From the IMG/VR virus record IMGVR_UViG_3300028831_000243, positions 1 through 43,783 of that record: a DNA stretch of 43,783 nt, one strand, 5' to 3'. This document shows, piece after piece, positions 1 to 40,305 of the stretch; positions within the stretch are counted from its first letter, which is position 1, and the number at the start of each line of letters is the position of its first letter. The translations under genes and the position numbers were made by a program. Source of the stretch: a virus. The notes beneath the pieces are model-generated. The model worked only from the letters and a program-made list of their open reading frames with translations, was not told the DNA's origin and did no database searches.

Positions 1-229
1 GGTCGCCGACGTGCACGACGGCTGGGTGGACGCCCTGCGGGGGCTGGGCCAGCAGGTGTGGACGTACAACCTGGATGACCGGCTCGCGTTCTACTGCAAC
101 GCCCTGTTCGAGTCCGACGCGGACGGGGCGTTGCAGTAGAACGCGAGCCGGTCATCCAGGTTGTACGTCCACACCTGCTGGCCCAGCCCCCGCAGGGCGT
201 CCACCCAGCCGTCGTGCACGTCGGCGACC
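1..229. repeat. Perfect foldback inverted repeat at the window edge
   Basis: Bases 1-104 are the exact reverse complement of 126-229, with a 21-base spacer at 105-125. The repeat runs to the first base, so it may continue outside the window. Both arms encode the same piece of a glycosyltransferase-like protein. Reading the plus strand through the junction gives a natural continuation (FYCN then ALFESDADG), whereas the minus strand gives an unnatural tail and a stop. This pattern fits a polymerase or assembly foldback at a contig end better than a biological palindrome. Confidence 0.95.
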
Positions 230-267
230 GAGTACGCCGGCCCGGGGTGGACGACGAGGAACCTCAC
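126..267 (-). CDS. Glycosyltransferase-like phage protein, partial
   Basis: The GTG at 267 overlaps the stop of the previous gene (GTGA). The visible N-terminus begins VRFLVVHPGPAYSVADVHDG, resembling the first Rossmann strand and loop of GT-B-type glycosyltransferases found in actinophage virion operons. About 48 codons are genuine; the frame then enters the foldback at 126 and becomes meaningless. The true continuation is probably the 21-base spacer read on the plus strand. Its place at the end of the head-tail genes suggests a role in virion decoration. The family assignment rests on a short N-terminus only. Confidence 0.5.
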
Positions 268-620: not shown

Positions 621-1078
621 CGGAACGACCTGCCCATCGCCGACCGCACCTCGGCCTGGAACACCCGCGGAACCTGCGGCCCGTACTGGTTCACGGCTTT
701 CTCGAACGGGTGCTTGCCCTTCGTCCCCGGGTGGTGCACCGACTGCCGGTATCCGATGCCGGGGATCAGCAGGGCCCTGCCGCGGCGGCGGGCGGCGCGG
801 GGCTCGCGGTGCGCGGACGTGTCCCGCTCGATCAGCTGGTACGGGCCGGTGGCCTTCACGATCGCCGACCCGATCCGCAGCGGCTCGGTCTTGGCGCCCA
901 CCTTCGCGCCGCGTTTCCCGACCCCGGACAGCACGCCAGACGCGGCCACGGACCGCGTGTTCGCGTTGACCCGGTCGGTGAGGCCCTGCGCGGCCTTCGC
1001 CGCCGCCGCCTTCTGCGCCTTCGTCAGTTCGACGGCGAACACCGCGCACTGCCCGGCGAAGTCCTGCAGTGTGGTCAC
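617..1078 (-). CDS. HK97 gp10-like head-tail protein
   Basis: This 153-residue protein begins at GTG 1078, coupled by GTGA to the connector gene. It has a strongly helical alanine/lysine-rich N-terminus (residues 15-45), a basic middle and a proline-bounded motif around HHPGTKGKHPFEKAVNQ (about residues 115-131). This motif, with the closing arginine-rich helix, resembles the HK97 gp10-like/neck family that joins head completion proteins to the tail. The position between the gp6-like connector and the tail-terminator-like gene supports the call. The much longer open frame extending upstream to 2023 is the shadow of the connector gene. Confidence 0.6.
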   Translation of the reverse strand: MTTLQDFAGQCAVFAVELTKAQKAAAAKAAQGLTDRVNANTRSVAASGVLSGVGKRGAKVGAKTEPLRIGSAIVKATGPYQLIERDTSAHREPRAARRRGRALLIPGIGYRQSVHHPGTKGKHPFEKAVNQYGPQVPRVFQAEVRSAMGRSFR

Positions 1079-1920
1079 GCCAGCAGCACCGGGGTCGGGG
1101 CGGATCGGAGCATGTTCCGGACGCTGTTCGGCAGTTCCGCGAAGTCCGGGACGAACCCGGCGTCGCCGTATGTGGCGGAGCCGTGGGCCTGGGACAGGTT
1201 CCACCAGTGCTGGACCAGCTGCATCACAGCGCCATCCACGCCGGGCGGGATCTCGTCCCAGCCCGCCGAGTAGGTGACCGTGTAGGTGCCGCACGGCCGG
1301 ACCCCGGTCGACGGCCGCACCATGCCGTACAGCGGGTTCTCCACGACCAGGGCTGAGACCGTGACGGTGGGCGCCCAGGTGTCCAGCGGCGTGACGGCCG
1401 ATACGGACCGGACCGGCACCCGGGACAGGTTCAGCCGGCCGTCGCAGGCGGTGACCGTCTCGGTGACGGTGATCGGCACCGCGACGACCTCCCGCATGAT
1501 CCGCGCACTGGCCCAGCCGACGATCCGGTCCAGCAGGGCGTCGTCGACGGTGCCCGACAGCCGCAGGAACGCCTTCGCGTCCGCCAGAGACACCAGCCGG
1601 ACGTGGCCGTCGCCGAACGGGTCCTGCACGTCGAACACGCCGGGGCCTGGGTTCGGCCCGACGCCGGCCGCGGTGCCGGTGCTGACCCACTTGTACCGGT
1701 AGTGCCCGGCCGCCAGAGTGCCGGGTAGGTCGTAGTGGAAGTGCCCCGTCGAGTCCTTCGTCAACTCCGCCGGGGACGGCCACGTCTTCGTGGTGACCGT
1801 GGCGGAGCCGGCCAATTGCCAGGACAAGGTGAGGGTCGTCGGATCCGTCGCGGTGCCGCTGATGTCCTCGACGACGGTGGACAGGCGGATCGGCTGCCCG
1901 GTCGCGTACAGGTCGCTCAC
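1075..1920 (-). CDS. Head-tail connector (gp6-like) with N-terminal beta-sandwich
   Basis: This 281-residue protein starts at GTG 1920 (GTGA overlap). Residues about 1-100 look like an Ig/bacterial-surface-type beta-sandwich (alternating Thr/Val strands, HYRYKWVSTG). Residues about 105-281 match the phage gp6-like head-tail connector family: helix VSLADAKAFLRLSG, then DDALLDRIVGWASARIM, then a beta-rich middle and a final helical stretch with AVMQLVQHWW. Connectors form a dodecameric ring under the portal. Usual family length is about 100-190 residues, so the extra N-terminal domain is unusual and may be exposed on the particle. Confidence 0.65.
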   Translation of the reverse strand: MSDLYATGQPIRLSTVVEDISGTATDPTTLTLSWQLAGSATVTTKTWPSPAELTKDSTGHFHYDLPGTLAAGHYRYKWVSTGTAAGVGPNPGPGVFDVQDPFGDGHVRLVSLADAKAFLRLSGTVDDALLDRIVGWASARIMREVVAVPITVTETVTACDGRLNLSRVPVRSVSAVTPLDTWAPTVTVSALVVENPLYGMVRPSTGVRPCGTYTVTYSAGWDEIPPGVDGAVMQLVQHWWNLSQAHGSATYGDAGFVPDFAELPNSVRNMLRSAPTPVLLA

Positions 1921-2102
1921 GTCGGCCCTCCTGTCCTGCTTGAGGCCGGCACCTGAGCGGTCGCAGGCCGCGCGGTCGGTGCCTGGATGGTGGCCGCGGT
2001 GCTGGTGGCTGTGAGCACGCCAACGGTCTCGACCGGCTCGCCGGTGTCCTCGCCGACGCCGTACTGGCCCAGGCCGTAGCCGCCGAGGCCGTAGCCGGGC
2101 AT
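1917..2102 (-). CDS. Small Gly/Thr-rich virion-operon protein
   Basis: This 61-residue ORF starts at ATG 2102, overlapping the upstream stop as TGATG, and ends in a GTGA overlap with the connector. The N-terminus is a GYGLGGYGLGQYGVG repeat, followed by a Thr/Ala/Pro-rich low-complexity tail. I do not recognise the family. The tight coupling on both sides argues for a real small structural or assembly protein. Confidence 0.6.
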   Translation of the reverse strand: MPGYGLGGYGLGQYGVGEDTGEPVETVGVLTATSTAATIQAPTARPATAQVPASSRTGGPT

Positions 2103-2635
2103 CAGCCGCCAGGACCGAGGTTGATCACGTCCACAGTGGACGGATAGACGGTGTGCCCGAACGCCCGGCCGGCCGAGTCGCGGTACATGAACGACAGCGT
2201 GATGTTCCCGCCGGATAGGTCCGCTGACGCCACCACCCAGGTCACGGCGGGCAGCTGACCCATGCCGAAGTCGCCGTCCTGGTACAGGCCGCCGTGGCCG
2301 TTCGCGGCCTGCACGGCGGTGCCGGACGAGTAGTACCGGGCCGGGGCGCCGGACACGACGGAGGCTAGGTCGCCTTCGGCGGCGCCGGATGTCGAGTCCG
2401 CGATGATCGCCGGGTAGACGACGAGCACGTCTCCGACCGCGGCAGGCACTGTGACCCGCAGCGCGGCCGGGTACAGCGTCCACGTGCCGGACGTGCCGCC
2501 CGCGAAGGGTGTCAGCGTCACCGGCCCGGTCGAACCGCGGACCGGCTTCAACGCCCGCACTCCGACCAGGCCGGTGATCGCCACGTTCAGCTGCGCACCC
2601 CACACGTCCCCGTCGGCCGGCGTAGGCAGCGTCAC
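2102..2635 (-). CDS. Putative beta-rich virion structural protein
   Basis: This 177-residue protein starts at GTG 2635 (VTLPTPADGDVWG). The sequence is dominated by beta-strand-type segments and Gly/Thr turns, with phrases typical of phage fibre or head-decoration proteins, such as WTLYPAALRVTVPAAVGDV and ITLSFMYRDSAGRAFGH. The VTLPTPADGDVWGA(Q)LN opening resembles tail-fibre or minor structural proteins of actinophages. It could be a decoration protein or a substrate of the upstream glycosylation genes. Function is inferred from composition and location only. Confidence 0.55.
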   Translation of the reverse strand: MTLPTPADGDVWGAQLNVAITGLVGVRALKPVRGSTGPVTLTPFAGGTSGTWTLYPAALRVTVPAAVGDVLVVYPAIIADSTSGAAEGDLASVVSGAPARYYSSGTAVQAANGHGGLYQDGDFGMGQLPAVTWVVASADLSGGNITLSFMYRDSAGRAFGHTVYPSTVDVINLGPGG

Positions 2636-2642
2636 GATGCCC

Positions 2643-3002
2643 CTACTTGCCCGCGGTCTTCGACTCGCTGGGCTGCGCGGGCCTGGTCGCCGGCGTGGCG
2701 GGCGGGTTGGTGGCTGTGGTGTCGCGGACCCGGTGCGGGGTCGGGCCGCCCATCGGCGTCGACACCGGGTCGTCACCGCCGCCGGACCGGGCGTCGTTGT
2801 CGCCCGCGTCCGGGTGCAGCAGGTCCGGCTGCGCGGCCACAGCACTGGTCCGGCCGGTGCCCTCGTCGACGGCCAAGCCAAGCGGGCGGAACACGTCCGG
2901 GTGGGCCTGGACGATCGGGTGCGCGTCGTCGATCTTCGACCCGGCGTCCAGGATCTTCCGGTCACCGTCCATCACCGGCTTGTCGTTGGTCACCAGCGCC
3001 AT
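2643..3002 (-). CDS. Hypothetical virion-operon protein
   Basis: This 119-residue protein begins at ATG 3002, preceded by a near-perfect AGGAGG ribosome binding site at normal spacing, a strong signal suggesting high expression. The first half holds an ordered motif (DDAHPIVQAHPDVFRPLGLAVDE) seen in small proteins near the capsid gene of actinophages. The second half is Pro/Thr/Asp-rich and probably disordered. It could be a minor head protein. I cannot assign a function. Confidence 0.6.
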   Translation of the reverse strand: MALVTNDKPVMDGDRKILDAGSKIDDAHPIVQAHPDVFRPLGLAVDEGTGRTSAVAAQPDLLHPDAGDNDARSGGGDDPVSTPMGGPTPHRVRDTTATNPPATPATRPAQPSESKTAGK

Positions 3003-3023: not shown

Positions 3024-3575
3024 TCAGTCCTGCGGGAGCAGCGGGGCCTCGTTCCGCCCGCCGGCACCACGCCGGTATATCCAGGCCACCTGCGGCACGC
3101 AGACGAACCGGGCCCGGGCGGCCAGCAGCCGTTTCCACAGCGCCCAGTCCTCGTTCCGCTCGCCGAGCGGGAACCCGCCGACCCGGCGCAGCAGGTCCGT
3201 CCGGACGCAGGCGGTCACCGGGATGAAGTTCCGCCAGGCCAGCATGTTCGCGTCGAACGCCGGCAGCGGCGCCGGCTCCTCCGCGCCGAGCAGCTCCCAC
3301 GACGTGTACACCACGTCGGCGCCGGCCAGGTGCGGTGTGACGACGTCGAGGTAGTTCGGCAGCAGCAGGTCGTCGTCGTCGAGGAACAGCGCCCACCCGG
3401 TCCGGACCTGGCCCAGTAGGCCGTTCCGGGTGGGCGCCGGGCCGTCGCCAGCCCGATCCAGGGCGACCAGATGTGGCAGGCCGAGCGCGGCGACCGACGC
3501 CCGGCAGTCCGCCAGTTGCCGTTCCCGGCCGGGGATCGTGGGGGTGACGACCGTGACGTCAGCCGTCGAGGGCAC
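3024..3575 (-). CDS. Family 2-like glycosyltransferase
   Basis: This 183-residue GT-A enzyme starts at GTG 3575, 17 bases inside the epimerase gene. The N-terminus (DVTVVTPTIPGRERQLADC) is the nucleotide-sugar-binding strand. WALFLDDDDLLLPNYLD carries the DxD metal-binding motif, and GERNEDWALWKRLL matches the acceptor/catalytic ED region of GT2 enzymes. It is shorter than most GT2 proteins (230-350 residues) and looks like a minimal GT-A domain. It is encoded in a cassette with other sugar-modifying enzymes in the virion operon, so a virion glycoprotein is the likely acceptor. Confidence 0.8.
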   Translation of the reverse strand: MPSTADVTVVTPTIPGRERQLADCRASVAALGLPHLVALDRAGDGPAPTRNGLLGQVRTGWALFLDDDDLLLPNYLDVVTPHLAGADVVYTSWELLGAEEPAPLPAFDANMLAWRNFIPVTACVRTDLLRRVGGFPLGERNEDWALWKRLLAARARFVCVPQVAWIYRRGAGGRNEAPLLPQD

Positions 3576-4452
3576 GGCGGATGCCCTCCTCCAACGTCAC
3601 CTTCGGCTGGTACACGTCCCACATCCGCGCCCGGTCGCCGACCCGGTAACTCACACCCGCCGGCGCGCCGGTCAAGTGCTCAACAGCCGGCCAGTACCCG
3701 GCCGCGGCGGCGACCAGCCGCGCGAGTTCGTCGAACCGCGTCGGCCTGCCCGTGCACAGGTTCACCGGCACCGTCACGTCCTGCTCGACGACGGCCAGGA
3801 TCCCGGCCACGACGTCGTCGATGTGGATCCAGTCCCGGACCTGCGTGCCGTCACCCCACAGCGTCAGCGGATCTTCCCGGCGCCGCGCCCGGCCGACGAT
3901 CGCCGGGAAGGGGTACGTGTCGTCCTGGTCGGTGCCGTAGCCGGAGAACGGCCGTACCACGTGCACCGTGAGCCCCTCGGCAGCCGCCTCGGCGGCCAGG
4001 CGCTCCCCGGTGAGCTTCGTCCAGCCGTAGGTCGCGTCCGGTAGTTCCGGCCGGGCCAGGTCGACGTCGGCCTCGCGCAGATATCTGGACACTCCGTCGG
4101 TCTGCAGCGCGACCGGGTACACCGCCGACGAGGACAGGTACACCAGGTGCGCCGGGCGGGCGTGCAGCGCCCACTCGAACAGGGCACCGTCGAGCTGCAG
4201 GTTGTACGCGCCGAGGAACGTCGGTTTGCCTTCGATGTCGGCCCGGCCGCCGACATGAGCAGCGGCGTGCACCACCAGATCGAACGGCCACCAGTTGCCC
4301 GCCGCCGGGTCCAGCCACCGGCGTGCGTCCACGGTCCGGGTCGCGCCGGGACGCAGGTCGATGCCGGTCACGTCCCAGCCGGCCGACTCCAGCGCGGACA
4401 CCATGTGCCGGCCGACGAACCCCGCCGACCCGGTCACCAGCGCCCGCTTCAC
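3559..4452 (-). CDS. NAD-dependent epimerase/dehydratase (extended SDR)
   Basis: This 297-residue protein begins at GTG 4452 (GTGA overlap). VTGSAGFVGRH at residues 6-16 is the GxxGxxG NAD-binding loop, LVVHAAAHVGG the second Rossmann motif, YLSSSAVYP the serine strand and YGWTK the YxxxK catalytic pair. WGDGTQVRDWIHIDDVV is the conserved segment of nucleotide-sugar epimerases such as UDP-glucose or GDP-mannose 4-epimerases. It probably makes the sugar nucleotide used by the neighbouring glycosyltransferases. The exact substrate cannot be told from sequence alone. Confidence 0.9.
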   Translation of the reverse strand: MKRALVTGSAGFVGRHMVSALESAGWDVTGIDLRPGATRTVDARRWLDPAAGNWWPFDLVVHAAAHVGGRADIEGKPTFLGAYNLQLDGALFEWALHARPAHLVYLSSSAVYPVALQTDGVSRYLREADVDLARPELPDATYGWTKLTGERLAAEAAAEGLTVHVVRPFSGYGTDQDDTYPFPAIVGRARRREDPLTLWGDGTQVRDWIHIDDVVAGILAVVEQDVTVPVNLCTGRPTRFDELARLVAAAAGYWPAVEHLTGAPAGVSYRVGDRARMWDVYQPKVTLEEGIRRALDG

Positions 4453-5051
4453 GGACGCCCGGCCAGCAGCGCCTGGAAATAGCCGTCGACCCGGTCGTGC
4501 CGCAGCACCCGCCAGCCTCCCTGCTCGACCAGCGCCCGGTACCCGGGCAGGTCCCACGCCCACGCATGGCATTCGTCGTGCGCGGCCGGCGACTCCGGCC
4601 ACGGCGACGACGCAACCAGCCACCGCGACTGCCCGGCGACCCAGCGGACCGCGGCGTGCGGGTCGGCCAGGTGCTCGAGCACCTCGGTCATCACGGTCAC
4701 GTCCCCGAACTTGACGGCGTCCCGATCCGCACCGAACACGTCCACCCGCTCGGCCGTGACGCCCCGCTCGGCCCAGCCGGCCGCGTTAGACGGCTGGAAG
4801 TCGTAGCCCCACGCCCGCTCCACGGCGGGCAGCCTGCCCAGCAGGGACAGCAGACCGCCGTCGCCGCAGCCCAGGTCCGACACCGTCACCGGCCGGCCGG
4901 CCGCGTCGGCGGCCTGCTCGACCAGGTAGGCCGCGTATACCAGCCGGCGGCGGTGCAGCGGCTGCTCAAGGTGCGGCGCCCGGTCCCGGTGTTCGTGGAA
5001 CGCGGCGGTCGACACGTGCGGCACGTCGCCGTCAAACAGCCGGTGCTCCAT
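4449..5051 (-). CDS. Class I SAM-dependent methyltransferase
   Basis: This 200-residue protein starts at ATG 5051, overlapping the previous stop as TGATG. SDLGCGDGG at about residues 58-66 is SAM motif I. WGYDFQPSNA gives the acidic residue of motif II, VTVMTEVLEHLADPH is the motif IV/post-motif typical of the Methyltransf_11/23 families, and the C-terminus carries a strand-helix cap. It has no DNA-methylase motif (no NPPY or PCQ). In a sugar cassette it most likely methylates a sugar or sugar-linked group, which is an inference. Confidence 0.82.
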   Translation of the reverse strand: MEHRLFDGDVPHVSTAAFHEHRDRAPHLEQPLHRRRLVYAAYLVEQAADAAGRPVTVSDLGCGDGGLLSLLGRLPAVERAWGYDFQPSNAAGWAERGVTAERVDVFGADRDAVKFGDVTVMTEVLEHLADPHAAVRWVAGQSRWLVASSPWPESPAAHDECHAWAWDLPGYRALVEQGGWRVLRHDRVDGYFQALLAGRP

Positions 5052-5611
5052 CAGCGGCACAGCCAGATGCCGAAGCAGTACGACCCGACACCGCCGACCG
5101 GCCGCAGGTCCAGGGCCGTGTACACGGCCGGGGTGAACCCGGCCTGCCGCAGCATGCCCTCCACGCCGGCCCGGTCCCACGCCCAGTAGTGCTCGACGTT
5201 CGGGTCCTGCCAGGCGTCGACCGGGGTCGACAGGACCAGCAGGCTCGTCACGGCCCGGATCTGCTTGAGGACGCTGTCCGGGTCGTCGAGGTGCTCCAGC
5301 GTCTCGCAGCACACGTACAGGTCCACCGGGTCCAGCCCGGTCAGCGTCTCCTCCAGCGGCCCACACACCTCGTAGGCCGGGGCCAGGTCGCCGAAAACCC
5401 TCGTGCCGGCGCGGATGCCGCGCAGTATCGCCCCGTCGCCGCAGGACAGGTCCGCCGCGCGCCGGACCGGGGCGGTCATGGTCCTGGCGACCGCCAGGGT
5501 CACAGCGACCCGCGCCTCGTGGTCGAGCCACTTGGTGTGGTCGTGCGGCACCGCGTACAGCCGGGCCAGTTCGGCCTCGCCGTGCGCCGGCCGCAGACGC
5601 TGCCGGGTCAC
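5051..5611 (-). CDS. Class I SAM-dependent methyltransferase
   Basis: This 186-residue enzyme starts at GTG 5611 (GTGA with the glycosyltransferase before it). Motif I is ADLSCGDGAIL, the central strand reads VDLYVCCETLEHLDD, and VLSTPVDAWQDPNVEHYWAW follows as the late Rossmann part. It is related in layout to the next gene (both have CGDG and E-LEHL-D), so the pair may come from duplication and act in sequence on one glycan. No target-specific domain is visible. Confidence 0.8.
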   Translation of the reverse strand: MTRQRLRPAHGEAELARLYAVPHDHTKWLDHEARVAVTLAVARTMTAPVRRAADLSCGDGAILRGIRAGTRVFGDLAPAYEVCGPLEETLTGLDPVDLYVCCETLEHLDDPDSVLKQIRAVTSLLVLSTPVDAWQDPNVEHYWAWDRAGVEGMLRQAGFTPAVYTALDLRPVGGVGSYCFGIWLCR

Positions 5612-6318
5612 GCCGGCACCGGAAGCAGCGCCCGCGCTTTCGCCAGGTCGGCGGCGAAGCGTTCCGCGACGTACCGCTCGAACGCGGCCATGTCCTTGCC
5701 GTACATGGCCGGGTCGTTGACCCGCTGGTAGCCGGCGTCCCAGGTGCCGGTGCCGGCGAACGGGTGGCAGTGCTCGACCACCACCTGCGGCAGGTACCGC
5801 AGCCGGCCGAGGGACCGGCCGAGGGTCATCCAGAAGTTGTCCACGTACAGGTGCGTCAGCTCGGGCGGGGCCATGTATCCCAGCGCCCGGACGAGGTCCG
5901 CGGTCATGGCGCACTGCGTCGCCAACTGCTCCCGCTGCAGCAGGTCGTTGCCGTACACGATCCCGGTGCCGAGGTCGTGCAGCGCGTCCAAGTAGGCCTG
6001 GTCCCAGCCGACGGTGCGGGGGCGGTGGTCGTCACCCATGAACCCGACCGCGAACGCCCCGCTCTCGACCGCGACCGCTGCCGCCTGGTTCAGCGCCTCG
6101 ACCATCGTGTGCGTGTCCTGGCCCAGGACGTACGCGGCCCGGCCTGGTGGCACGTCCAGGTCGGCAGCGGCGATGTAGTCGCCGTGCGCCGGGTCGTCCA
6201 TGTCGACGGCGATCAGCAGCCAGGTGTTCGCCGTGCACGTGCCCGCGAACGTCTCGGCCAGGGCCCGCGCGGCGGCCGGGCGGCCACGGGACGGGACGAC
6301 GACTACCAGGTCAGCCAT
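5608..6318 (-). CDS. GT-A glycosyltransferase-like protein
   Basis: This 236-residue protein starts at ATG 6318. It opens with ADLVVVVPSRGRP, the first GT-A strand, and contains FAVGFMGDDHRPRTVGWDQ, in which GDD occupies the DxD position. HLYVDNFWMTLG and VVVEHCHP provide the late acidic/His residues typical of this fold. It is recognisable as the phage GT-A proteins found in virion operons of actinophages. Donor and acceptor are unknown. It is coupled to the flanking genes by an 8-base overlap and GTGA. Confidence 0.75.
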   Translation of the reverse strand: MADLVVVVPSRGRPAAARALAETFAGTCTANTWLLIAVDMDDPAHGDYIAAADLDVPPGRAAYVLGQDTHTMVEALNQAAAVAVESGAFAVGFMGDDHRPRTVGWDQAYLDALHDLGTGIVYGNDLLQREQLATQCAMTADLVRALGYMAPPELTHLYVDNFWMTLGRSLGRLRYLPQVVVEHCHPFAGTGTWDAGYQRVNDPAMYGKDMAAFERYVAERFAADLAKARALLPVPA

Positions 6319-6499
6319 CAGCGGGACGCCGGCCCCGGCCGCGGGGCTGGTCGGTCACCGGCGCGATCGGCACGAAATGCTGCGGGAACGCCTTCGCCAA
6401 CTCGTCGTCGTCGGGCCGCTCCTCACCCTCATGGATATAGACCGGCACGCCTTGGTGGCCGACGAACCCGGAGAACGTGGCCCGCACCTTGCCGCTCAC
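6311..6499 (-). CDS. Small protein in the glycan cassette
   Basis: This 62-residue ORF starts at GTG 6499 by GTGA coupling. The first 45 residues (VRATFSGFVGHQGVPVYIHE...) look like a small beta-barrel similar to short head-region proteins of actinophages; the tail is Arg/Pro-rich. It lies between two glycosyltransferase genes. I do not recognise a function. An adapter or an acceptor protein are both possible. Confidence 0.6.
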   Translation of the reverse strand: MSGKVRATFSGFVGHQGVPVYIHEGEERPDDDELAKAFPQHFVPIAPVTDQPRGRGRRPADG

Positions 6500-7251
6500 G
6501 CGGACACCTCCCGCTGCTCGACGGCGTCGGTGAACAGGCCGCGTTGTGCCAGGTACCGGTCCACCGTCAACTCCTGATCCTTGATGTGCCCGAGCGTCAC
6601 CGCGGTGTTCACGAAGATCGGCACCCGGGCCAGGCCGGCGCGCCAGCAGAACGCGATGTCCTCCGACACCGGCCGGCCGTCGTGCTCCAACTCCTGGAAC
6701 CAGGGGAATGCCCGGTTGAACCCGACCCGACCGTCGGGCATCTCGAAGTCCCGGATCCGTTCCAACGCCGACTTGTGGATCAGCAGGCAGGCCGCGCCAG
6801 TCGCCGCGACCTGGAACATCGCGTCCGGCGGCCACTCGTGGTAGCGGATGACCTGCGGGTGCTGCTCGTCGCCGACCAGCCCGAACAGGGTCGGCTGGAT
6901 CTCGCCCTTGTCGTCGAACCCGAAGCACAGGCCGCCGACGACCGGGGCGGTCTCCGGATCGGCGTGATCGAGCAGGCGCTCGATGATGTCCGGGCGGAAC
7001 GTCATGTCCGTGTCCACCATCCACAGCCAGTCCGCCTGGCCGTACTCCAGGAACCGCTGCACCAGCGAGTTCCGGGGCCCGGACAGGTTCGCCCCGGCCT
7101 GGGTGGCGAGCCGGCCGCCGCCCTGCACGATCCGCCGGTGGAACGCCGTGTCGTACACGATCAGGTCCACGACGCACTCCATGAACGCGGCGTGGACCAG
7201 GCCGGGGTGCAGGTAGGCGACGACGACCTTCTCGGCCGTCGGGCGACTCAT
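6496..7251 (-). CDS. GT-A glycosyltransferase-like protein
   Basis: This 251-residue protein starts at ATG 7251; an in-frame upstream ATG near 7269 is possible but would run into the hairpin leader. The SGPRNSLVQRFLEYGQADWLWMVDTDM region gives the nucleotide-binding helix and the DTD metal motif. VAATGAACLLIHKSALERI and EDIAFCWRAGLARVPIFV are the acceptor-binding loop and the ED catalytic helix of GT2-type enzymes. FVNTAVTLGHIKDQ closes with the typical late His. It is the first gene of the cassette behind the tandem hairpins. Confidence 0.8.
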   Translation of the reverse strand: MSRPTAEKVVVAYLHPGLVHAAFMECVVDLIVYDTAFHRRIVQGGGRLATQAGANLSGPRNSLVQRFLEYGQADWLWMVDTDMTFRPDIIERLLDHADPETAPVVGGLCFGFDDKGEIQPTLFGLVGDEQHPQVIRYHEWPPDAMFQVAATGAACLLIHKSALERIRDFEMPDGRVGFNRAFPWFQELEHDGRPVSEDIAFCWRAGLARVPIFVNTAVTLGHIKDQELTVDRYLAQRGLFTDAVEQREVSA

Positions 7252-7374: not shown

Positions 7375-7566
7375 TCAGTCGCCGCCGAGGGCGTGTCCCA
7401 TCTGCCGCATCGTCGACCGCGTTCGGGCCGCCGCGGCGGCAGTCGCCTGCGCGCACGCCTGACCGATCGTGTCCGCGTCCGATGACGGCGACGCCATCAC
7501 ACCCGGCGGCGACGGCGGTGCCTGCTCGGCCTGCGGCGCCGCGTCGGCGCCAGCCATCTCCGACAT
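7375..7566 (-). CDS. Small protein following the capsid gene
   Basis: This 63-residue ORF starts at ATG 7566 with a good GGAGGG ribosome binding site, immediately after the capsid stop. It is Ala/Pro-rich and acidic at the N-terminus, with a possible helix (ADTIGQACAQATAAAAARTRSTMRQM). No family is recognised. A minor head or decoration protein is possible from its location. Confidence 0.55.
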   Translation of the reverse strand: MSEMAGADAAPQAEQAPPSPPGVMASPSSDADTIGQACAQATAAAAARTRSTMRQMGHALGGD

Positions 7567-7574: not shown

Positions 7575-9032
7575 CTACGCCAGCGCGGTCGCCGCGGCGA
7601 CCTGGTTCAGCTGCAGCAGCCGGAACGCCGAGGCGTCGACCACGTCCGCGCCGACCCGCCAGAACGCGTACCAGCCGGCCTGACCGGTCGGCCGGCCGTT
7701 GCCGGTCGACTTCACGATCGGGTCGTAGATCACCGACATGCCGACCCGGTCCACGATGTAGTACTCGGCGAAGTTGCCGGCCAGCAGCACGTTGGCGCCG
7801 GTCGACACGACCGACGTCATCGACGACGCCTCGTAGATCGGCTGGCCCAGTAGCGCGTTCGGGACGCCCATGCCGAGGTTCGCCCAGAACGACGAGCCGC
7901 CGGACGTGTCGAACCTCCGGGTCAGCGAGAAGATTTTCTTGTTGGCGACCCAGGACGCCTGCGCGGCGTCGCGGGGGCGGAGCGCGTCGGACGTGTTGTA
8001 CACGTCACCGACCGCGAACGCGTTGGTCGCGGCCGAGGTGACGATGGACGCGGTGACCGCGGCGACCGCGGCGACGACCCCGCGGGGGATCGTCGCGCCG
8101 GTGTTCGCGGTGGCGAACGCCGCCGCTTCCAGCCGGTCCTTCGCGTCGGACAGCAGCCGGCCGAGCTCGGACGCGAACCCGGAGTCGGCGAGCACCTCGT
8201 AGGAGCCGAACACCCACGCGTCGGCCTTCTTCGGCGTGATCGTCGGCTGGACGAATGTCGGCGAGGCGTCCGCGGCCTCCACACCCTCCGCGGTCCACTC
8301 CGCATTCACGCCGGCCGAGGTCACCCCGGACCAGGTGTCGGTCGTGATGGTCTTGATGGTGGAGATGGCGCGGAACGGGTTCGCGGTGCCCGAGTTCGTG
8401 AGGATCACGGTCGGGTCGAGCGTGAACGGCACCAGGTACCCGCCGTTCGCGTCCGTCAGCGACATCGCGGCGCGCATCGCCTCACCCACGTACGTGCCGC
8501 GGGAGGCGACGTACTGCCGGAACTCCTCGTGGTACTCCGGGGAGCCGGTCAGCAGCACGTGCCGGGCGATCATCGGGGCGTGCTTGTTGTCCAGCCGCAG
8601 CAGCTGGTCCAGCCGCTCCCGGGACTCGTCCCGCAGGTGCTCCGGGGCCTGCTCCACCGCGGCCAGCGCACGGGAGATGGTGTCCTGCGGGTTGAACGGG
8701 CCCTGGTTCCACAGCGACCGGACGAGTTCGTCCTTCGTCTCGAACGGGTCCACGTTCCGCTTGACCTCCGGCCCGCGTGACCGCGACACGGTCGCGGGCT
8801 CTTCGGCTTCGGTCTTGCCGTCGTCCAGCGCCGCCCGGAGCACCTCTTCGACGTCGGCTTCCCGCTTCAGCGCCTTGTCCCGGGCTTCCTTCTTCTCCCG
8901 GAACTCGACCAGCAGGCCGTTCGCCCGCTCGATTTCGTCCTCGGTGGCCTCGTCGTTCTCCTCGATCACCTTGATCTCGGCGCGGATGGCCTCCATCTCT
9001 TCGCGGAGTACCTCCGACTGCTTGCGTGCCAT
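7575..9032 (-). CDS. HK97-fold major capsid protein
   Basis: This 485-residue protein starts at ATG 9032 (TGATG); a GTG one codon earlier is the alternative. Residues about 5-80 form a highly charged coiled coil, the delta/scaffolding domain removed by the prohead protease. The mature domain begins near residue 160-200 (GGYLVPFTLDPTVIL) and shows hallmark segments of the Phage_capsid family: the E-loop/P-domain region around KKADAWVFGSYEVLADSG, and the C-terminal GNFAEYYIVDRVGMSVIYDP. Gene order portal-protease-capsid is canonical. It would be the most abundant virion protein. Confidence 0.95.
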   Translation of the reverse strand: MARKQSEVLREEMEAIRAEIKVIEENDEATEDEIERANGLLVEFREKKEARDKALKREADVEEVLRAALDDGKTEAEEPATVSRSRGPEVKRNVDPFETKDELVRSLWNQGPFNPQDTISRALAAVEQAPEHLRDESRERLDQLLRLDNKHAPMIARHVLLTGSPEYHEEFRQYVASRGTYVGEAMRAAMSLTDANGGYLVPFTLDPTVILTNSGTANPFRAISTIKTITTDTWSGVTSAGVNAEWTAEGVEAADASPTFVQPTITPKKADAWVFGSYEVLADSGFASELGRLLSDAKDRLEAAAFATANTGATIPRGVVAAVAAVTASIVTSAATNAFAVGDVYNTSDALRPRDAAQASWVANKKIFSLTRRFDTSGGSSFWANLGMGVPNALLGQPIYEASSMTSVVSTGANVLLAGNFAEYYIVDRVGMSVIYDPIVKSTGNGRPTGQAGWYAFWRVGADVVDASAFRLLQLNQVAAATALA

Positions 9033-9784
9033 CACAGATCCTCGTCTCGCACGGCCGCCCGTAGGCGGAGCAGGCTCATCTGCCGGGCGGAGTGCGAGTC
9101 GCGCGGGTCCGCGGCGCCGGGTCCCGGGTCGGGAGTGGCGGGCTGCTCCGGGTCGTCACCGTCGGGTTCGTCGCCGGTGGGAGTGGAGCGGGTCAGAACG
9201 TCGTGCAGCATCGACCGGAGCGCCTCGATCCCGGCCCCCACGTAGGCGGGAGTCGGGGTCGGGCCGTATTCGGTCAGGCCGAGTTCGGTCCGGGTCACCG
9301 TCGGTAGCGCCGCCCCCATGCGTGCCCTCGGTACCCGAGCCGGGTTCGAGCGGAAGATCCCGCCGCGGAACGAGTAGCCGCGGATGTCCCCGGCGCGGAT
9401 CGCCTCCAGCACCGAGTCGGCCAGCGGGGACCGGTTGAGCCGGGTCACCGTCCGCAGACCTTTCGCGTCGGCGCGGATGTCCACCGGCGACCCGATCGGC
9501 ACCGATCCCAGGTCCGACGGGGTGCCGTGGATCGTCAGGCCGTGGTGGTAGTAAACGCCGACCCGGTCGATGCCGTGGGACAGGGTGCGGTTGAACGCGG
9601 TCCGGGCGATGACCTCCATGTAGTGGCCGTACTTGTCGGTGATCTCCGTGGGTACGTCGAACACCGCCGCGTACGCCTCCACCGTCCGCCCGTCGCCGCC
9701 CTTGCCGGCGCGCAGGATCTCGATTCCGTCGAGCGCCCACGAGCGGGCGTACAGCGGCTGCACGGCGTCGCCGGGCTCGCCCAT
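9032..9784 (-). CDS. HK97-type prohead protease (family U35/S78)
   Basis: This 250-residue protein starts at ATG 9784, two bases after the portal stop. The domain spans about residues 20-175. VEAYAAVFDVPTEITDKYGH is the typical N-terminal strand pair, VYYHHG (His80/81) carries the catalytic histidine and GYSFRGG (Ser138) the nucleophile. PTPAYVGAGI ends the domain. Residues 180-250 are an acidic, proline-rich tail. It cleaves the capsid delta domain during maturation. Confidence 0.92.
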   Translation of the reverse strand: MGEPGDAVQPLYARSWALDGIEILRAGKGGDGRTVEAYAAVFDVPTEITDKYGHYMEVIARTAFNRTLSHGIDRVGVYYHHGLTIHGTPSDLGSVPIGSPVDIRADAKGLRTVTRLNRSPLADSVLEAIRAGDIRGYSFRGGIFRSNPARVPRARMGAALPTVTRTELGLTEYGPTPTPAYVGAGIEALRSMLHDVLTRSTPTGDEPDGDDPEQPATPDPGPGAADPRDSHSARQMSLLRLRAAVRDEDL

Positions 9785-18020: not shown

Positions 18021-18273
18021 GTCCGCTCCCCGTCGTCGTCTTGGTCGCTTCTGCCGCCGCGCAGTACCGGCACCCCGCCGGCACACACGACCCCTCCATG
18101 TGCGCCTGCTGCGCCGCCGTGCCACCCCACGCGTTCCCCGGCGGCAGGGTCTGCCGGGCCACGAATCCTGGGTCGTCCACCGGCTCGGCCGGCTCGACGT
18201 CGAGAAGCGTGGGGTGCGGGCAGTCGAGGTCGGTGCCGTCGCAGTCGTACGCGCAGCCGATGGGGCCGGTCAT
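18013..18273 (-). CDS. Small cysteine-rich protein
   Basis: This 86-residue ORF starts at ATG 18273, overlapping the methyltransferase stop. It has an N-terminal CAYDCDGTDLDCPHPTLL motif and a C-terminal CVPAGCRYCAAAE motif, so two possible metal sites. The middle is Pro/Asp-rich. It overlaps the next gene by 8 bases. Function unknown. Confidence 0.55.
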   Translation of the reverse strand: MTGPIGCAYDCDGTDLDCPHPTLLDVEPAEPVDDPGFVARQTLPPGNAWGGTAAQQAHMEGSCVPAGCRYCAAAEATKTTTGSGHE

Positions 18274-19016
18274 GCGGCCCACCTCCGGTCGAAGTCGAGC
18301 AGCAGCCGGCCGACGTGCTCCGCGACCTGCGGCACTACAGCGTCCCCGAGCGCTCCACATCGGTCCACCCGGCCGGGAACCCCATAAGCCACTCGACCCA
18401 CTCCGGGTTCGACGGCCCACCAAGAACCTCCGGCAGGCTCAGCCCCGTCTTCGTGTTGGCCGCGCGACGCCCCCGGGCCTCGTCGCTCAGGCCACCGCGG
18501 CGGCCGTCCTTGGCCAGCGGGGTAGGCCAGCGCGAACAGCCGGCGGCGTGGATGTGGTGCACCCACGGCGCACGCGGAAAACACTGACCACTCCGCATCG
18601 AAGCCGAGGTCGGCCAGGTCGGAGAGGACCCATCCCCAGGCGTCGACTCCGGGGCAAGCAAGGAGAGCTGGGACGTTCTCCAGCAGGACGTAGCGGGGTC
18701 GAACCAGGCGAATGACGGCTGCCATCGCCGGCCACATCCACCGCTCGTCGGCGACTCCGAGCCGCAGTCCGGTGAGGCTGAACGGCTGACAGGGGAAGCC
18801 TCCGAAGACGAGATCGACATGTGGGCGGTCCTCCCCGTCGAGCCACCAGTCGGCGGCGGTGCGTACGTCGTCGTGGCGCGGCACGTCCGGCCAGTGTCGG
18901 GCGAGCACCTGCCGCCGCCACAGGTCGAGCTCCACCTGGCCGACCACGGCGACGCCGGCGCGTTCCAGGCCGAGGTCGAGGCCGCCGATGGACGAGAAGA
19001 GGCTCAGTCCGTTCAC
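18270..19016 (-). CDS. DNA (cytosine-5-)-methyltransferase
   Basis: This 248-residue protein starts at GTG 19016, with AGGAG seven bases before it. Motif I is LSLFSSIGGLDLGLERAG, motif IV GGFPCQPFS with catalytic Cys76, motif VI LLENVPALL and motif VIII PHPRRRLFALA. The end holds a motif IX/X-like segment with ALGDAVVPQVAEHVG, where the usual Asn of GN-VP is Asp. The target-recognition region is very short, so specificity is unclear. No partner restriction enzyme is nearby, so it probably protects phage DNA. The 3' third also encodes a family-like protein segment in another frame (18335-18529). Confidence 0.92.
   Translation of the reverse strand: MNGLSLFSSIGGLDLGLERAGVAVVGQVELDLWRRQVLARHWPDVPRHDDVRTAADWWLDGEDRPHVDLVFGGFPCQPFSLTGLRLGVADERWMWPAMAAVIRLVRPRYVLLENVPALLACPGVDAWGWVLSDLADLGFDAEWSVFSACAVGAPHPRRRLFALAYPAGQGRPPRWPERRGPGASRGQHEDGAEPAGGSWWAVEPGVGRVAYGVPGRVDRCGALGDAVVPQVAEHVGRLLLDFDRRWAA
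18335..18529 (-). other. Alternative-frame methylase-like segment inside the methyltransferase gene
   Basis: In a second frame the same DNA reads WPTPLAKDGRRGGLSDEARG, then ANTKTGLSLPEVLGG, then NPEWVEWLMGFPAGWTDVER before a stop at 18335. WPTP...DG and NPxWVEWLMGFPxGWTD are familiar pieces of phage DNA methylase C-termini. The main frame over the same bases reads VGRVAYGVPGRVDR, also a familiar phage methylase end. It is either real dual coding, a relic of compensating frameshifts, or a frame error. Confidence 0.5.
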
Positions 19017-30725: not shown

Positions 30726-31106
30726 ATGACTAGGACGCTGAGCGCCGTCGGGGGTGCGCGGCCAGATGTCGACAGGAACATCCGGACGGTGGTCAAGATG
30801 CTCTTGGCCGCCACTGACCAAAGGCAGGCAGACCTACCTCAACTCCTCGGATGGTCCAAGAGCGTGACGTACTCCCGCCTCAGCGGCGGGTCGCGCTTCT
30901 TCGCCTGGGAGGTTCAGGCGCTAGCTGACCTGTTCGAGGTGCCGGTCGACGTGTTCCACGCAGGTCCCACCGCGTTAGTCCGGCGCGCGGACGGACAGGC
31001 ACTCGGGAATACTTTGGACTACTCCGTGACGGCCGGCACGTCCTCCGGAATGTCCCCCACGTCCGTCACGGACACCATCCCGGCACAGACCCGGTGGGCG
31101 GCATGA
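30726..31106 (+). CDS. HTH regulator, candidate immunity repressor
   Basis: This 126-residue protein is read from ATG 30726; a GTG at 30666 lies upstream of the predicted promoter and is not favoured. NIRTVVKMLLAATDQRQADL, then PQLLGWSKSVTYSRLSGGSR and FFAWEVQALADLFEVPVDVF form an XRE-type HTH with the typical closing helix. The remainder is Thr/Ser-rich and disordered. It overlaps the integrase by ATGA, so repressor and integrase are co-expressed. Confidence 0.8.
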   Translation: MTRTLSAVGGARPDVDRNIRTVVKMLLAATDQRQADLPQLLGWSKSVTYSRLSGGSRFFAWEVQALADLFEVPVDVFHAGPTALVRRADGQALGNTLDYSVTAGTSSGMSPTSVTDTIPAQTRWAA

Positions 31107-32050
31107 CCCGACCGCTGCCCGCACCCGTGCGTTCTTCACAACTGTCACTCGTCCGGGTGGCGCCGCGTAGCAGCGGTGCGATCCTCCCGTTCATGGGCGC
31201 CGATGTCGCCGCCCATGTCCGCTGGATGCGGCTACGGGGGCTGTCCGAAGCGACCGTCCAGCACCGGCAGAAGGTGCTGCGGCTGCTGATCAACCATGCC
31301 GGCCGCCCACTGCTCGACCTCGCCGCCGCCGACCTCGACGCCTGGCAGACCACCATCGGCGTCCTGTCCATCCAGTCGCAGGCCACCTACAAGATGCACG
31401 TCCGCATGTACTACGCCTGGGCCGTCGGCGAGGCGCACCTGCTCGATGATGACCCGGCCGCCGTCCTCGTCATGCCCAAGGTCCCCCGGCACCTGCCCCG
31501 GCCGATCACCGAGCGGGACCTACAACGGGCGCTCGCCGACGCGCCGCCGCTGATCCGCGTCTGGCTCGAACTGGCCGCGTTCGCCGGCCTGCGCGCCGGG
31601 GAGATCGCCCGCCTCGAACGCGCCGACGTCCTCGACATGGCCGACCCGCCCGCACTGATCCTGCACGGCAAAGGCGGCCGGATGCGCGCGGTCCCGCTCG
31701 CCCCCCGCCCACTGCGGTCCCTGACCGAGCTCGGCATGCCCGACCGGGGCCGGCTGTTCATCCAGTCCAACGGCCGGCCGGTCAGCGCCAAGCGGGTCAG
31801 CGACCTGTCCAACGACTACCTGCACCGGCTCGGCATCGCCGAGACGATCCACAAGCTCCGGCACCGGTTCGCCACCCAGGCGCTCGCCGCCGGGTTGAAC
31901 CTGCGGCAGGTGCAGGAACTGCTCGGTCACGAGTCGATCGAGTCGACCGCGATCTACACCTGGATCAATCCTTCCGCTGCCGCTCCGACGGTGGCCGCTA
32001 TCGACCGGCCGCTGCTGCGGCCAGTACCCAGACAGGAGACGGGGACATGA
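31103..32050 (+). CDS. int: Tyrosine integrase of the phage
   Basis: This 315-residue protein starts at ATG 31103 (ATGA). An N-terminal SAM-like core-binding domain (about residues 30-120, HVRWMRLRGLSEATVQHRQK) precedes the catalytic domain with AGLRAGEIARL (Arg164), HGKGGRMR (Lys190), IHKLRHRFAT (His250, Arg253), LLGHESIESTAIY (His276, Tyr285). All six catalytic residues are present. It should integrate the phage at a host attB. It lacks the arm-binding domain of lambda Int and is XerC/D-sized. No attP could be assigned by eye. Confidence 0.93.
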   Translation: MTRPLPAPVRSSQLSLVRVAPRSSGAILPFMGADVAAHVRWMRLRGLSEATVQHRQKVLRLLINHAGRPLLDLAAADLDAWQTTIGVLSIQSQATYKMHVRMYYAWAVGEAHLLDDDPAAVLVMPKVPRHLPRPITERDLQRALADAPPLIRVWLELAAFAGLRAGEIARLERADVLDMADPPALILHGKGGRMRAVPLAPRPLRSLTELGMPDRGRLFIQSNGRPVSAKRVSDLSNDYLHRLGIAETIHKLRHRFATQALAAGLNLRQVQELLGHESIESTAIYTWINPSAAAPTVAAIDRPLLRPVPRQETGT

Positions 32051-35618: not shown

Positions 35619-36149
35619 CTAACCCGACAACGCCGGGCCCCGGCGCAGGCGCACGGCGGCGGGTCGCTGGTACAGGGCACCCGACCGGCGGTGCGGCACG
35701 TCCACCACCCGCACCAGGGCGAACCCCTCCCCCTCGTAGTAGGCCCGCAGCCGCTGGTTGGTTCGCCAGGCGTCCAGCCGCAGCCACGACCGCCCGGCGG
35801 CCTCCGCCCGGGCGCTGGCCCAGTCCAGCAGTGCCGACCCCAGCTGGCCGCCGGCAGCCGTGCGGCGGACGACCATCCGGTGCACGTACAGCGCGCTGCC
35901 GGGCTCATCCTCCGGTGTCCAGAAGTCCGGGTCGGCGCAAGAGTCCAGCGTGATCGTGGCGACCGGCACGCCGTCCAGGTCAACCAGCCAGCACTCGCCG
36001 GCCGCGATCGACGCGGCGATCCGCTCGGCCCGGGCCGGGTACTGCCACTGGTCGGAGCCGATCGACGCCAGCCAGCGGCCAGCCTCGGCCCACATGTCAG
36101 CGACCGCGCCCGCCTCATCCGGGCGGGCACGGCGGATCAGATGGGTCAC
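35619..36149 (-). CDS. GNAT-family N-acetyltransferase
   Basis: This 176-residue protein starts at GTG 36149 (GTGA with the GntR gene). LIRRARPDEAGAVADMWAEA is the N-terminal GNAT strand and helix. LYVHRMVVRRTAAGGQLGSA carries motif A with the Q/R-x-x-G-x-G/A acetyl-CoA loop (RRTAAGGQLG). NQRLRAYYEGEGF is the typical N-x-x-x-xxxY-x-x-x-GF motif B. Substrate unknown. It is co-transcribed with a GntR regulator. Confidence 0.9.
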   Translation of the reverse strand: MTHLIRRARPDEAGAVADMWAEAGRWLASIGSDQWQYPARAERIAASIAAGECWLVDLDGVPVATITLDSCADPDFWTPEDEPGSALYVHRMVVRRTAAGGQLGSALLDWASARAEAAGRSWLRLDAWRTNQRLRAYYEGEGFALVRVVDVPHRRSGALYQRPAAVRLRRGPALSG

Positions 36150-36925
36150 TCCTGGACCTGCCGGCGCCGCTCATAGATCAGCCGGTACCTGTCGCCCGGG
36201 TAGACCGTGACGACGCACCGCACCGGCCGGCTGTCCGGGCGCTCCCCCAGGTAGCCGGTGACGATCTGCTCCAGCACGGGCGTGCCGGGCGGCAGGTCGA
36301 GCCGCTGAGACTCGGCCGCCGTAGGCATCCGCGCGACGTACTCGTCCACCACCAGCGCCTGCGGGTAGCCCAGCTCGTCGAGCATCTTGTTGACGCCGCG
36401 GGCCACGTCGTCCGGGCTCATCGCCTCGGAGCCCTGCACCACGTCGATCGGGTAGTACGAGTCGTTCAGGTCGTACACCTCCCCGTCGACCCGCCGGAGC
36501 CGCATCCGTACGACGACCACGTCGTTGCCGGTGCGCAGTCGCTCGGCGACGGGCGCGGGCGGCCGGACCAGCCGTACGTCGATCTCCTGGGTGGGCTGGC
36601 CGGCCTGCGCGGTGACCTGTCCGACGAAGAAGTCGGTGAGGTCGGCGAAGTGCCGGCCGAACTCCTCCTGCGGCCGTACGACGATTCGTCGCCGGTTGCG
36701 GACGAACACGCCGAGGGGCCGGCGGGAGACGACGAGGCCTTCGGCGACGAGGTCTTCGAGGGCGCGCCGGACGGTGCCGCGGGAGACCTTCGCCTCGGGC
36801 AGCCGGGTTCGCCATTCGGCGACGAGTGCCTCTTGGGTGGGTAGTTGGGCGCCGGGGCCGAGGGTGCCGGCGTCGATCTGGGCGCGCAGGTCATCGGCGA
36901 TGTGTTGGTAGAGCGGCTTCGCCAC
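36146..36925 (-). CDS. GntR-family (HutC/UTRA) regulator
   Basis: About 259 residues are read from GTG 36925 (VAKPLYQHIADDLRAQI); a TTG at 36955 would add ten residues. The GntR winged helix spans residues 1-80 (GPGAQLPTQEALVAEW, KVSRGTVRRALEDLVAEGLV). The UTRA domain follows (VVVVRMRLRRVDGEVYDLND, SYYPIDVV, PPGTPVLEQIVTGYL). Such regulators (KorSA/Pra-like position) control transfer genes in AICEs and Streptomyces plasmids. Inverted repeats at 36956 and 37020 are likely operators. Confidence 0.9.
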   Translation of the reverse strand: MAKPLYQHIADDLRAQIDAGTLGPGAQLPTQEALVAEWRTRLPEAKVSRGTVRRALEDLVAEGLVVSRRPLGVFVRNRRRIVVRPQEEFGRHFADLTDFFVGQVTAQAGQPTQEIDVRLVRPPAPVAERLRTGNDVVVVRMRLRRVDGEVYDLNDSYYPIDVVQGSEAMSPDDVARGVNKMLDELGYPQALVVDEYVARMPTAAESQRLDLPPGTPVLEQIVTGYLGERPDSRPVRCVVTVYPGDRYRLIYERRRQVQE

Positions 36926-36955
36926 CTGCTGATCTTTGCGGTACTGGCGGGGCAA

Positions 36956-37029
36956 TGTCTAGCCAATCCGGTCCGGCGTGCCTATCCGCCTCGCCTCGAC
37001 TCGAAGTTATTGGACCCACTGGCTAGACA
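36956..37029. promoter_or_regulatory. Inverted operator pair in the GntR/transfer divergent region
   Basis: TGTCTAGCCA (36956-36965) and TGGCTAGACA (37020-37029) are exact reverse complements in the divergent promoter region. The second lies between a -35-like TTGGAC (37010-37015) and a -10-like TATGGC (37031-37036) with a short 15-base spacer. They are likely binding sites for the GntR regulator. The region 37030-37212 holds no gene I can support. Confidence 0.6.
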
Positions 37030-37212
37030 GTATGGCCATGACGTGACACAGTCAACGGACGGCACCAAGGGACCCAGGAGATCCCAAAGCCGCAGGTCAG
37101 AGGCCCACACAGGGTCTATTTGGTGTGCCCTGAGTAGGGCGCTGTCTCTCGGCCGGTCCGGGAGGCGGCGCCGTGCGCCAGGGACCGGCCCAGGGCACGA
37201 GGAAGGAACGTC

Positions 37213-37419
37213 ATGCTCGCGAAAGTGGGAGCGTCGGTCATCGGCGCACTGGTCGACGCCGCGAAGATCGTGCTCGGCCTGATGGCGCTGATCGCGCTGA
37301 TCGGCTGGGCGAAGACCCATCCCGACCAGGCGCAGGCGCTGGTCACGAACGCCATGAACACCGCCATGACCCTGCTGAACCGGCTGTTCACCTGGGTCGC
37401 CACGCTGGGCTCCGACTGA
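37213..37419 (+). CDS. Small membrane protein of the transfer module
   Basis: This 68-residue protein starts at ATG 37213 behind AAGGAAC. A hydrophobic helix (IVLGLMALIALIGWA) follows an amphipathic start, and a second helix (VTNAMNTAMTLLNRLFTWVA) may lie on the membrane. Small membrane proteins of this type open the transfer operons of AICEs (Spd-like). Function unknown. Confidence 0.6.
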   Translation: MLAKVGASVIGALVDAAKIVLGLMALIALIGWAKTHPDQAQALVTNAMNTAMTLLNRLFTWVATLGSD

Positions 37420-37742
37420 TGGCCGCGCAGGAGCAGCACATCACCGACGACGGCCTGACCGGGCTGTGCGGCGAGTCGCTGGTCGTCGATGAGCCGCTCG
37501 GCCCAACATGCCCGGCCTGCCAGCAGCAGGCGACGTCGACGCGCTACGTGTGGCCGCGGATCGGCCCGGCCCTGCTGGGGCTGGTCTGGATCGGCGGCAT
37601 GAACTTCGGCCGCGAGCTGTACCTGCGGCACCTGAACACGGCGGGCCGCTTGGCGGTCCTGGCCCTTGTGACGGCGGCCCTGTACGGCGTGATCATCCTG
37701 GCCGGGCGGGTCCGGCCCGACAACACCGGAGGCGAGTCGTGA
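37419..37742 (+). CDS. Small membrane protein with CxxC
   Basis: This 107-residue protein starts at ATG 37419 (TGATG). TCPACQQQ gives a CxxC and GLCGES another cysteine; two hydrophobic helices follow (IGPALLGLVWIGGMNF and LAVLALVTAALYGVIILAG). Similar two-helix proteins accompany tra in actinobacterial elements. Function is probably at the membrane during transfer or spread. Confidence 0.6.
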   Translation: MAAQEQHITDDGLTGLCGESLVVDEPLGPTCPACQQQATSTRYVWPRIGPALLGLVWIGGMNFGRELYLRHLNTAGRLAVLALVTAALYGVIILAGRVRPDNTGGES

Positions 37743-38059
37743 CCGAGACCGACGTCACCAGCGCGATCGACATGCTCCGGGACGGCGACGAGGTCGTCAC
37801 CGTCGCCGGCCTGATCCGTCACCTCTCCGCTCTGCCGCCGGACCTGCCCGTGGTCATGTCCCTCGACGGCCCCGACCCGGGCGTGTGCTCGCCGCTGGAG
37901 TGGGTCAACGTCATGGGCTACTGGCCCGAGAGCCCCTACCACGGCGACCCCTTCACCTGGGACCCGGACGACGGCGACGACCCGGGAGTGGTGAGGGCGG
38001 TCGTGTTCGGCCCGCGCGGTCTGCCCGACGAGGCCCGGCCCCCGAAGGAAGGCGAGTAG
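37739..38059 (+). CDS. Hypothetical protein of the transfer module
   Basis: This 106-residue protein starts at GTG 37739 (GTGA). VAGLIRHLSALPPDLPVVMS, LDGPDPGVCSPLEWVN and then an acidic Asp/Pro stretch are typical of small AICE/plasmid proteins upstream of tra. No function known. Confidence 0.55.
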   Translation: MTETDVTSAIDMLRDGDEVVTVAGLIRHLSALPPDLPVVMSLDGPDPGVCSPLEWVNVMGYWPESPYHGDPFTWDPDDGDDPGVVRAVVFGPRGLPDEARPPKEGE

Positions 38060-38064
38060 CAGCC

Positions 38065-40137: not shown

Positions 40138-40167
40138 CCGGCGGCCCCAGACCTAGCCGGCCGCCGG
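40138..40167 (+). terminator. Hairpin behind the tra gene
   Basis: CCGGCGGCC (40138-40146) pairs with GGCCGCCGG (40159-40167) across a 12-base loop, directly after the tra stop. There is no T-tract, so it may be a weak terminator or an mRNA 3'-end stabiliser. Confidence 0.5.
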
Positions 40168-40294: not shown

Positions 40295-40305
40295 AAGGGA
40301 CAGCC

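Follow-up and report, generated by a model that had tools for sequence, protein, structure and literature searches.

The DNA studied here, called the window, is the whole of IMG/VR virus record IMGVR_UViG_3300028831_000243 (43,783 bp, linear), which comes from a temperate actinobacterial phage from soil and encodes an integrase. On its minus strand, the head operon runs from portal through S78 protease and HK97-type capsid to a cassette of putative glycosylation genes, and then to small head genes and a Phage_connect_1 adaptor. The cassette (3024-7251) consists of seven open reading frames (ORFs) that overlap or abut their neighbors, with the capsid gene upstream and the head-tail adaptor downstream. 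An initial annotation, made from the sequence alone, had described three GT-A glycosyltransferases (GTs), two S-adenosylmethionine (SAM) methyltransferases, and an epimerase, all coupled, in the interval between capsid and connector genes; all six could be confirmed on the minus strand. Two small ORFs (7375-7566 and 6311-6499) were missing from that description. The cassette and the genes that frame it are as follows:

7575..9035, minus strand: major capsid protein, HK97 type (PF05065, E 6e-37), proposed acceptor of GT1
7375..7566, minus strand: 63-amino-acid (aa) ORF between the capsid gene and GT1, with no family match
6496..7251, minus strand: GT1, GT-A glycosyltransferase, proposed capsid-specific initiating enzyme (phrog_34859, E 2.5e-15)
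6311..6499, minus strand: S62, 62-aa protein overlapping GT1 and GT2, with relatives in loci L003, L004, L016, and L025
5608..6318, minus strand: GT2, GT-A glycosyltransferase, proposed glycan extender (phrog_14945, E 1e-40; no Pfam match)
5051..5611, minus strand: MT1, SAM methyltransferase with conserved motifs, proposed sugar O-methyltransferase (Methyltransf_23, E 2.5e-5, under the curated cut-off)
4449..5051, minus strand: MT2, SAM methyltransferase with conserved motifs, proposed sugar O-methyltransferase (Methyltransf_23, E 5.8e-9, over the cut-off)
3559..4452, minus strand: EPI, extended short-chain dehydrogenase/reductase (SDR), sugar-nucleotide epimerase/reductase (PF01370, Epimerase, E 1.7e-37)
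3024..3575, minus strand: GT3, GT-A family 2 glycosyltransferase (phrog_14775, E 1.5e-15; match to GT family 2)
1075..1920, minus strand: head-tail adaptor, Phage_connect_1 (PF05135, E 3e-4), which closes the inserted region

The GT-A assignment came from a structural model, Foldseek matches, and an invariant Asp for GT1 and GT2, and from the profile alone for GT3 (Asp motif D66-D69). GT1, which matched Glyco_transf_21/Glycos_transf_2 weakly, carries a DxD motif (D80/D82) that is invariant among its relatives, as are D96/D97 in GT2. Since GT2 had no Pfam match and GT1 fell just below the cut-offs, we predicted the structures of both, and the AlphaFold (AF2) models showed GT-A folds with pLDDT values of 91.8 (GT1) and 95.1 (GT2). 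The best solved matches of the GT1 model in Foldseek were STIV A197, COLGALT1, LH3, mimivirus R699, and ppGalNAc-T2, so that its predicted fold resembles those of viral or protein-directed transferases. The GT2 model gave WrtF, K4CP, TarS, TarP, and RmlT as best matches and, as modeled, resembles glycan-extending enzymes. The closest solved fold to GT1 is that of STIV A197, a GT-A enzyme of an unrelated archaeal virus (E 2.9e-9, TM-score 0.54/0.69, ca. 14% identity), whose own acceptor is only suspected; A197 is an essential enzyme suspected of glycosylating the coat protein of STIV (PMC10551542). EPI keeps the GxxGxxG motif and the Ser-Tyr-Lys active site of the extended SDRs. An identity as GDP-fucose synthase/GDP-mannose 3,5-epimerase was rejected, with an NCBIfam score of 74.8 against a cut-off of 500 and Ala110 (Ala in at least 90% of the family) at the position of the catalytic Cys. 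Because Ala replaces this Cys of the 3,5-epimerase, EPI is, judging from its sequence, more likely a C4 epimerase or 4-ketoreductase.

We queried 2.9 million viral contigs with GT1, GT2, and the capsid, and the same layout came back in dozens of them. When the capsid was the query, GT1 lay directly downstream of the capsid gene in 23 of 25 relatives, and the remaining two contigs stop 852 and 1 bp beyond that gene. The GT1 profile run on 84,980 bacterial and archaeal genomes gave 17 loci. Far from being found only as cell-wall enzymes outside virion operons, 14 of these GT1s were located immediately after the capsid gene of a prophage, in Micromonosporaceae, Streptomyces, Spongiactinospora, Amycolatopsis, Nonomuraea, Acrocarpospora, and metagenome-assembled genomes. 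Seven of the bacterial loci were minimal, reading capsid-GT1-adaptor with 2 to 122 bp left over. The other three of the 17 were L140, between terminase-like and portal-like genes, L133, in a non-phage setting, and L135, whose setting is unresolved. GT1 does not behave as a housekeeping cell-wall enzyme, since 394 of 395 genomes sampled from one bacterial class had no match and the only positive was the seed genome.

No close relative of GT1 turned up in the annotated phage collection, where the prophage GT1s matched a single metagenomic phage at 23 to 28% identity. In the cultured phages with related capsids, Bunnybear and Brujita, the capsid gene is followed directly by the head-tail connector genes, and no glycosyltransferase stands at the post-capsid site of prophiGD02-2, which bears out the earlier view of a cassette inserted into the head operon. 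The capsid C-terminus LNQVAAATALA was considered as a glycosylation tag and dropped, as other GT1-positive capsid lineages do not have it; no close cassette-free capsid exists for this comparison. In L053, a GT2 homologue (4116-5299) was found right after a tail-tube-like gene and not after GT1.

The gene content of these cassettes was nested. Among the 40 loci that are complete as far as the adaptor or the tail region, nine had GT1 only, eight GT1 and GT2, 16 these two plus methyltransferase and EPI, and seven all of them plus GT3, with no other combination, although very divergent GT3s may be missed in this count. Strict nesting is what a stepwise chain would predict, with a first sugar, a second sugar, and finally a tailored one, for which the enzymes of synthesis and methylation arrive as a set. 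There are also natural fusions, GT1-GT2 in the Amycolatopsis prophage L131 and GT2-methyltransferase in pas34 of Actinoplanes phage phiAsp2 (adjoining pas35), which support a joint action of these enzymes.

Pairwise divergence across loci separated the cassette into two parts, in correlations that are descriptive only because locus pairs are not independent. Divergence of GT1 followed that of the capsid (r 0.93, 61 loci) more closely than did protease (r 0.80) or portal (r 0.37), while GT2 and EPI hardly followed the capsid (r 0.22 and 0.21) and were correlated with each other (r 0.84). Within a single capsid clade the values were 0.79 for capsid-GT1, 0.64 for capsid-protease, 0.56 for capsid-portal, 0.16 for capsid-GT2 (p 0.12), 0.14 for capsid-EPI (p 0.20), and 0.87 for GT2-EPI. 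The natural reading of these divergences is that GT1 is fitted to its capsid and that the GT2-EPI sugar module is exchanged between phages, since GT2 and EPI track each other and not the capsid. We regard it as an evenly balanced question whether this amounts to a capsid glycotype system of two parts that is widespread among uncultured actinophages, in which a capsid-specific, co-evolving GT1 would be combined with a swappable sugar module (GT2, methyltransferases, EPI, and GT3) that alters the sugar of the shell, and with a parallel GT-B enzyme for the tail tube.

This last enzyme corresponds to the further glycosyltransferase that the initial annotation had seen at the start of the window:

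1..267, minus strand: GT-B glycosyltransferase, 5' end only (ca. 50 true codons), cut off by a fold-back

The gene is real, of the GT-B type, and only about 50 of its codons are present, because positions 1 to 114 invert 116 to 229. This near-perfect palindrome at the contig end (97% identity) is most likely an assembly fold-back, and annotations on the first ca. 115 bases should be ignored. Full-length orthologues have ca. 340 aa and the GT-B fold (Glyco_trans_1_2, PF13524, 6e-15 in one orthologue). In all nine loci that extend far enough, the gene lies 2 to 78 bp before the PHROG major tail protein gene, and in the window it comes after a small gene (264-620) in the tail-terminator slot, consistent with the order in relatives. 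GT-B and tail-tube divergence were weakly correlated (r 0.38, n 9).

We consider it quite probable that the cassette serves to glycosylate the particle of the phage itself while it is assembled. The position after the capsid gene, the covariation of GT1 with the capsid, the folds, the nesting, the fusions, the absence of the cassette from cultured relatives of the capsid, and the adjacency of the GT-B and tail-tube genes all point in this direction. GT1, expressed from the late operon of the capsid, would add the first sugar to the capsid protein or to a decoration protein bound to it, and GT2 and GT3 would extend the chain. EPI would make or finish an unusual sugar nucleotide, MT1/MT2 would O-methylate the sugar, and the separate GT-B enzyme would glycosylate the tail tube likewise. 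What the analysis shows is the content and order of the genes, the predicted fold of both GT1 and GT2, the conservation of catalytic residues, and the recurrence of the cassette with its capsid linkage and covariation; from these we infer acceptor, sugar identity, order of steps, and benefit. Virion glycosylation with sugar tailoring, the function first proposed for these genes, remains the best supported one. Homologous cassettes recur at that place in dozens of other phages, so the arrangement is not a chance one. Escape from antibodies, suggested along with this function as a benefit, is unlikely to be what selects for it in a soil phage; such escape is reported for mycobacteriophages in mammals in PMC11256854 and PMC12363180, citing Freeman 2023.

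Several points weigh against this assignment. The support consists of genes, predicted folds, and linkage. GT1 scores just under the Pfam cut-offs, no homology to Che8 gp110 could be detected for it at the family level, and the substrates of MT1/MT2 are deduced from the neighboring genes alone. The incomplete locus L006 has GT3 without GT2, which breaks the nesting. Besides the dependence among locus pairs, part of the capsid-GT1 correlation could stem from neighboring genes being inherited together; however, closeness alone is insufficient to account for it, because GT1 and GT2 are also neighbors and yet are uncorrelated.

Among other explanations, the one that we take most seriously, while still finding it unlikely, is that the sugars are placed mainly on accessory head fibers or decoration proteins and not on the capsid protein itself. 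The window has three genes between cassette and adaptor:

2643..3002, minus strand: S119, small head-operon protein with a Thr/Pro-rich tail and a strong ribosome-binding site; its homologue adjoins the capsid gene in L004; possible acceptor
2102..2635, minus strand: 177-aa protein, probable decoration or fiber protein, with no family match
1917..2102, minus strand: 61-aa ORF with a Ser/Thr-rich tail, TATSTAATIQAPTARPATAQVPASSRTGGPT, possible acceptor by its sequence

A kinship of the 61-aa ORF with a recurrent 98-aa family was considered and did not hold. In relatives with GT2 and tailoring genes, the genes in this slot often encode LamG-like proteins with mucin-like Thr/Ala/Pro repeats, and 60-mers with at least 35% Ser/Thr occurred in 13 of 54 cassette-adaptor genes versus 16 of 533 elsewhere (Fisher p 1.8e-7). 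In the window, the slot offers short Thr/Pro-rich tails, but its called gene peaks at 0.20 Ser/Thr per 60-mer. Moreover, GT1 covaries with the capsid, and the minimal prophages have no gene between GT1 and the adaptor, for which reason we favor the capsid protein as the acceptor of GT1; the repeat proteins could be modified as well. Long mucin-like Thr/Ala/Pro repeats were seen in head-operon proteins of L014 (10065-11540), L021 (14601-15938), L022 (13061-14551), L027 (12952-14514), and L131 (15492-16457), several of them behind an apparently globular N-terminal region.

The remaining alternatives give the cassette a target outside the virion, or none. Phage GTs glycosylate DNA bases in other systems (Pyle 2024, as cited in PMC12619734), and the window encodes a C5-cytosine DNA methyltransferase (18270-19016), so the transferases could act on a hydroxymethylated base and block restriction. 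We judge such DNA hypermodification very improbable: the cassette genes lie in the head operon, a thymidylate-synthase homologue was found in none of 24 tested, and TET/JBP was found neither in the window, which may be an incomplete contig, nor in the capsid-GT1 contigs tested, although with incomplete contigs an absence proves nothing. TET-positive records (4 of 54) all came from large phages that are organized differently, TET being some 30 to 50 kb away from GT2, and the C5-cytosine methyltransferase, which sits among early genes and has no TET partner, probably serves anti-restriction. Temperate phages carry serotype-conversion GTs, and this phage has an integrase, while surface-glycan loci often include methyltransferases and epimerases, as would fit a gtr-like alteration of host surface glycans during lysogeny. 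This lysogenic conversion appears equally improbable, with genes that stand within the late head operon and not beside the integrase, a GT1 whose divergence follows the capsid, no flippase, polymerase, or polyprenyl-phosphate GT in the cassette, and proteins that all look soluble (maximum 19-residue hydropathy of at most 1.49, with no transmembrane-like segment). Least probable of all, in our view, is a mobile block of genes that just happens to sit after the capsid gene without a target in the virion; the exchange of GT2-EPI independently of the capsid would suit it, but GT1 does not leave its capsid lineage, both the site and the nested order persist across wide divergence, and the catalytic residues are invariant.

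As in other actinophages with virion glycosylation, phage-encoded glycosyltransferases are here linked to virion structural genes. By sequence comparison, the cassette would perform virion glycosylation as in Corndog and Che8, but with a lead transferase and methyltransferases that appear unrelated to theirs. The Corndog type (cluster O) likewise carries within its head operon three transferases and an O-methyltransferase (gp35-gp38); these proteins were not seen in virions and were proposed in 2015 to decorate the capsid with methyl and glycan groups (PMC4351075), and PMC12363180, citing Freeman 2023, reports Corndog virion proteins as glycosylated. In Wildflower, used as the cluster O representative for layout and homology, these genes lie between portal and protease, whereas the window cassette lies between capsid and adaptor and adds an epimerase. 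No homology to the cluster O genes was detectable for MT1/MT2 or GT1, the gene compared with the methyltransferases being Wildflower gp33.

Che8 (cluster F) also has a small GT set, gp108-gp110, which acts on capsid and tail tube and is located at the right genome end, in contrast to the head-operon position of the cassette. The GT3 profile matched the GT part of gp108 (E 1.9e-11), the sole resemblance to Che8, and none of the GT1, GT2, and GT3 profiles significantly matched gp110, of the Corndog gp38 kind, the GT reported as essential for capsid glycosylation in Che8 (PMC12363180). In phiAsp2 (pas33-pas35), the GT2 homologue fused to a methyltransferase comes after virion genes and adjoins a homologue of Che8 gp110 (pas35). 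Unlike the window cassette, this set has no GT1 and no epimerase and does not stand behind the capsid gene. So far, glycosylated phage virions are known from a handful of mycobacteriophages. In the GT1 family, one transferase is linked to the capsid through its position, shared divergence, and predicted fold, apart from the exchangeable sugar module. The family also provides a natural graded series from GT1 alone to six enzymes, by which acceptor, chain order, and benefit become testable. Prophages with minimal and extended layouts occur in named strains, among them Streptomyces chumphonensis KK1-2 (L130), Nonomuraea typhae (L138), Spongiactinospora rosea (L128), and Amycolatopsis pretoriensis (L131).

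Some of the loci had further features. Large phages L077, L079, L093, and L055 carry a GT2-methyltransferase-epimerase cassette in another order and a distant TET/JBP gene. In three prophages, 2-oxoglutarate (2OG)-Fe(II) oxygenases of the families 2OG-FeII_Oxy_3, PhyH, and Asp_Arg_Hydrox come after the capsid gene (L131 11328-12005, L124 12837-13475, and L102 7337-7843). They are possible capsid or sugar hydroxylases, of note because GT1 resembles collagen hydroxylysine transferases. In the window itself, beyond the first integrase (31094-32050), the region 36146-42468 encodes a GntR-type regulator, an FtsK/SpoIIIE-like protein (42 to 50% to proteins from records of actinomycete plasmids), as well as a second tyrosine integrase, and it looks like an actinomycete integrative conjugative element adjoining or merged with the prophage.

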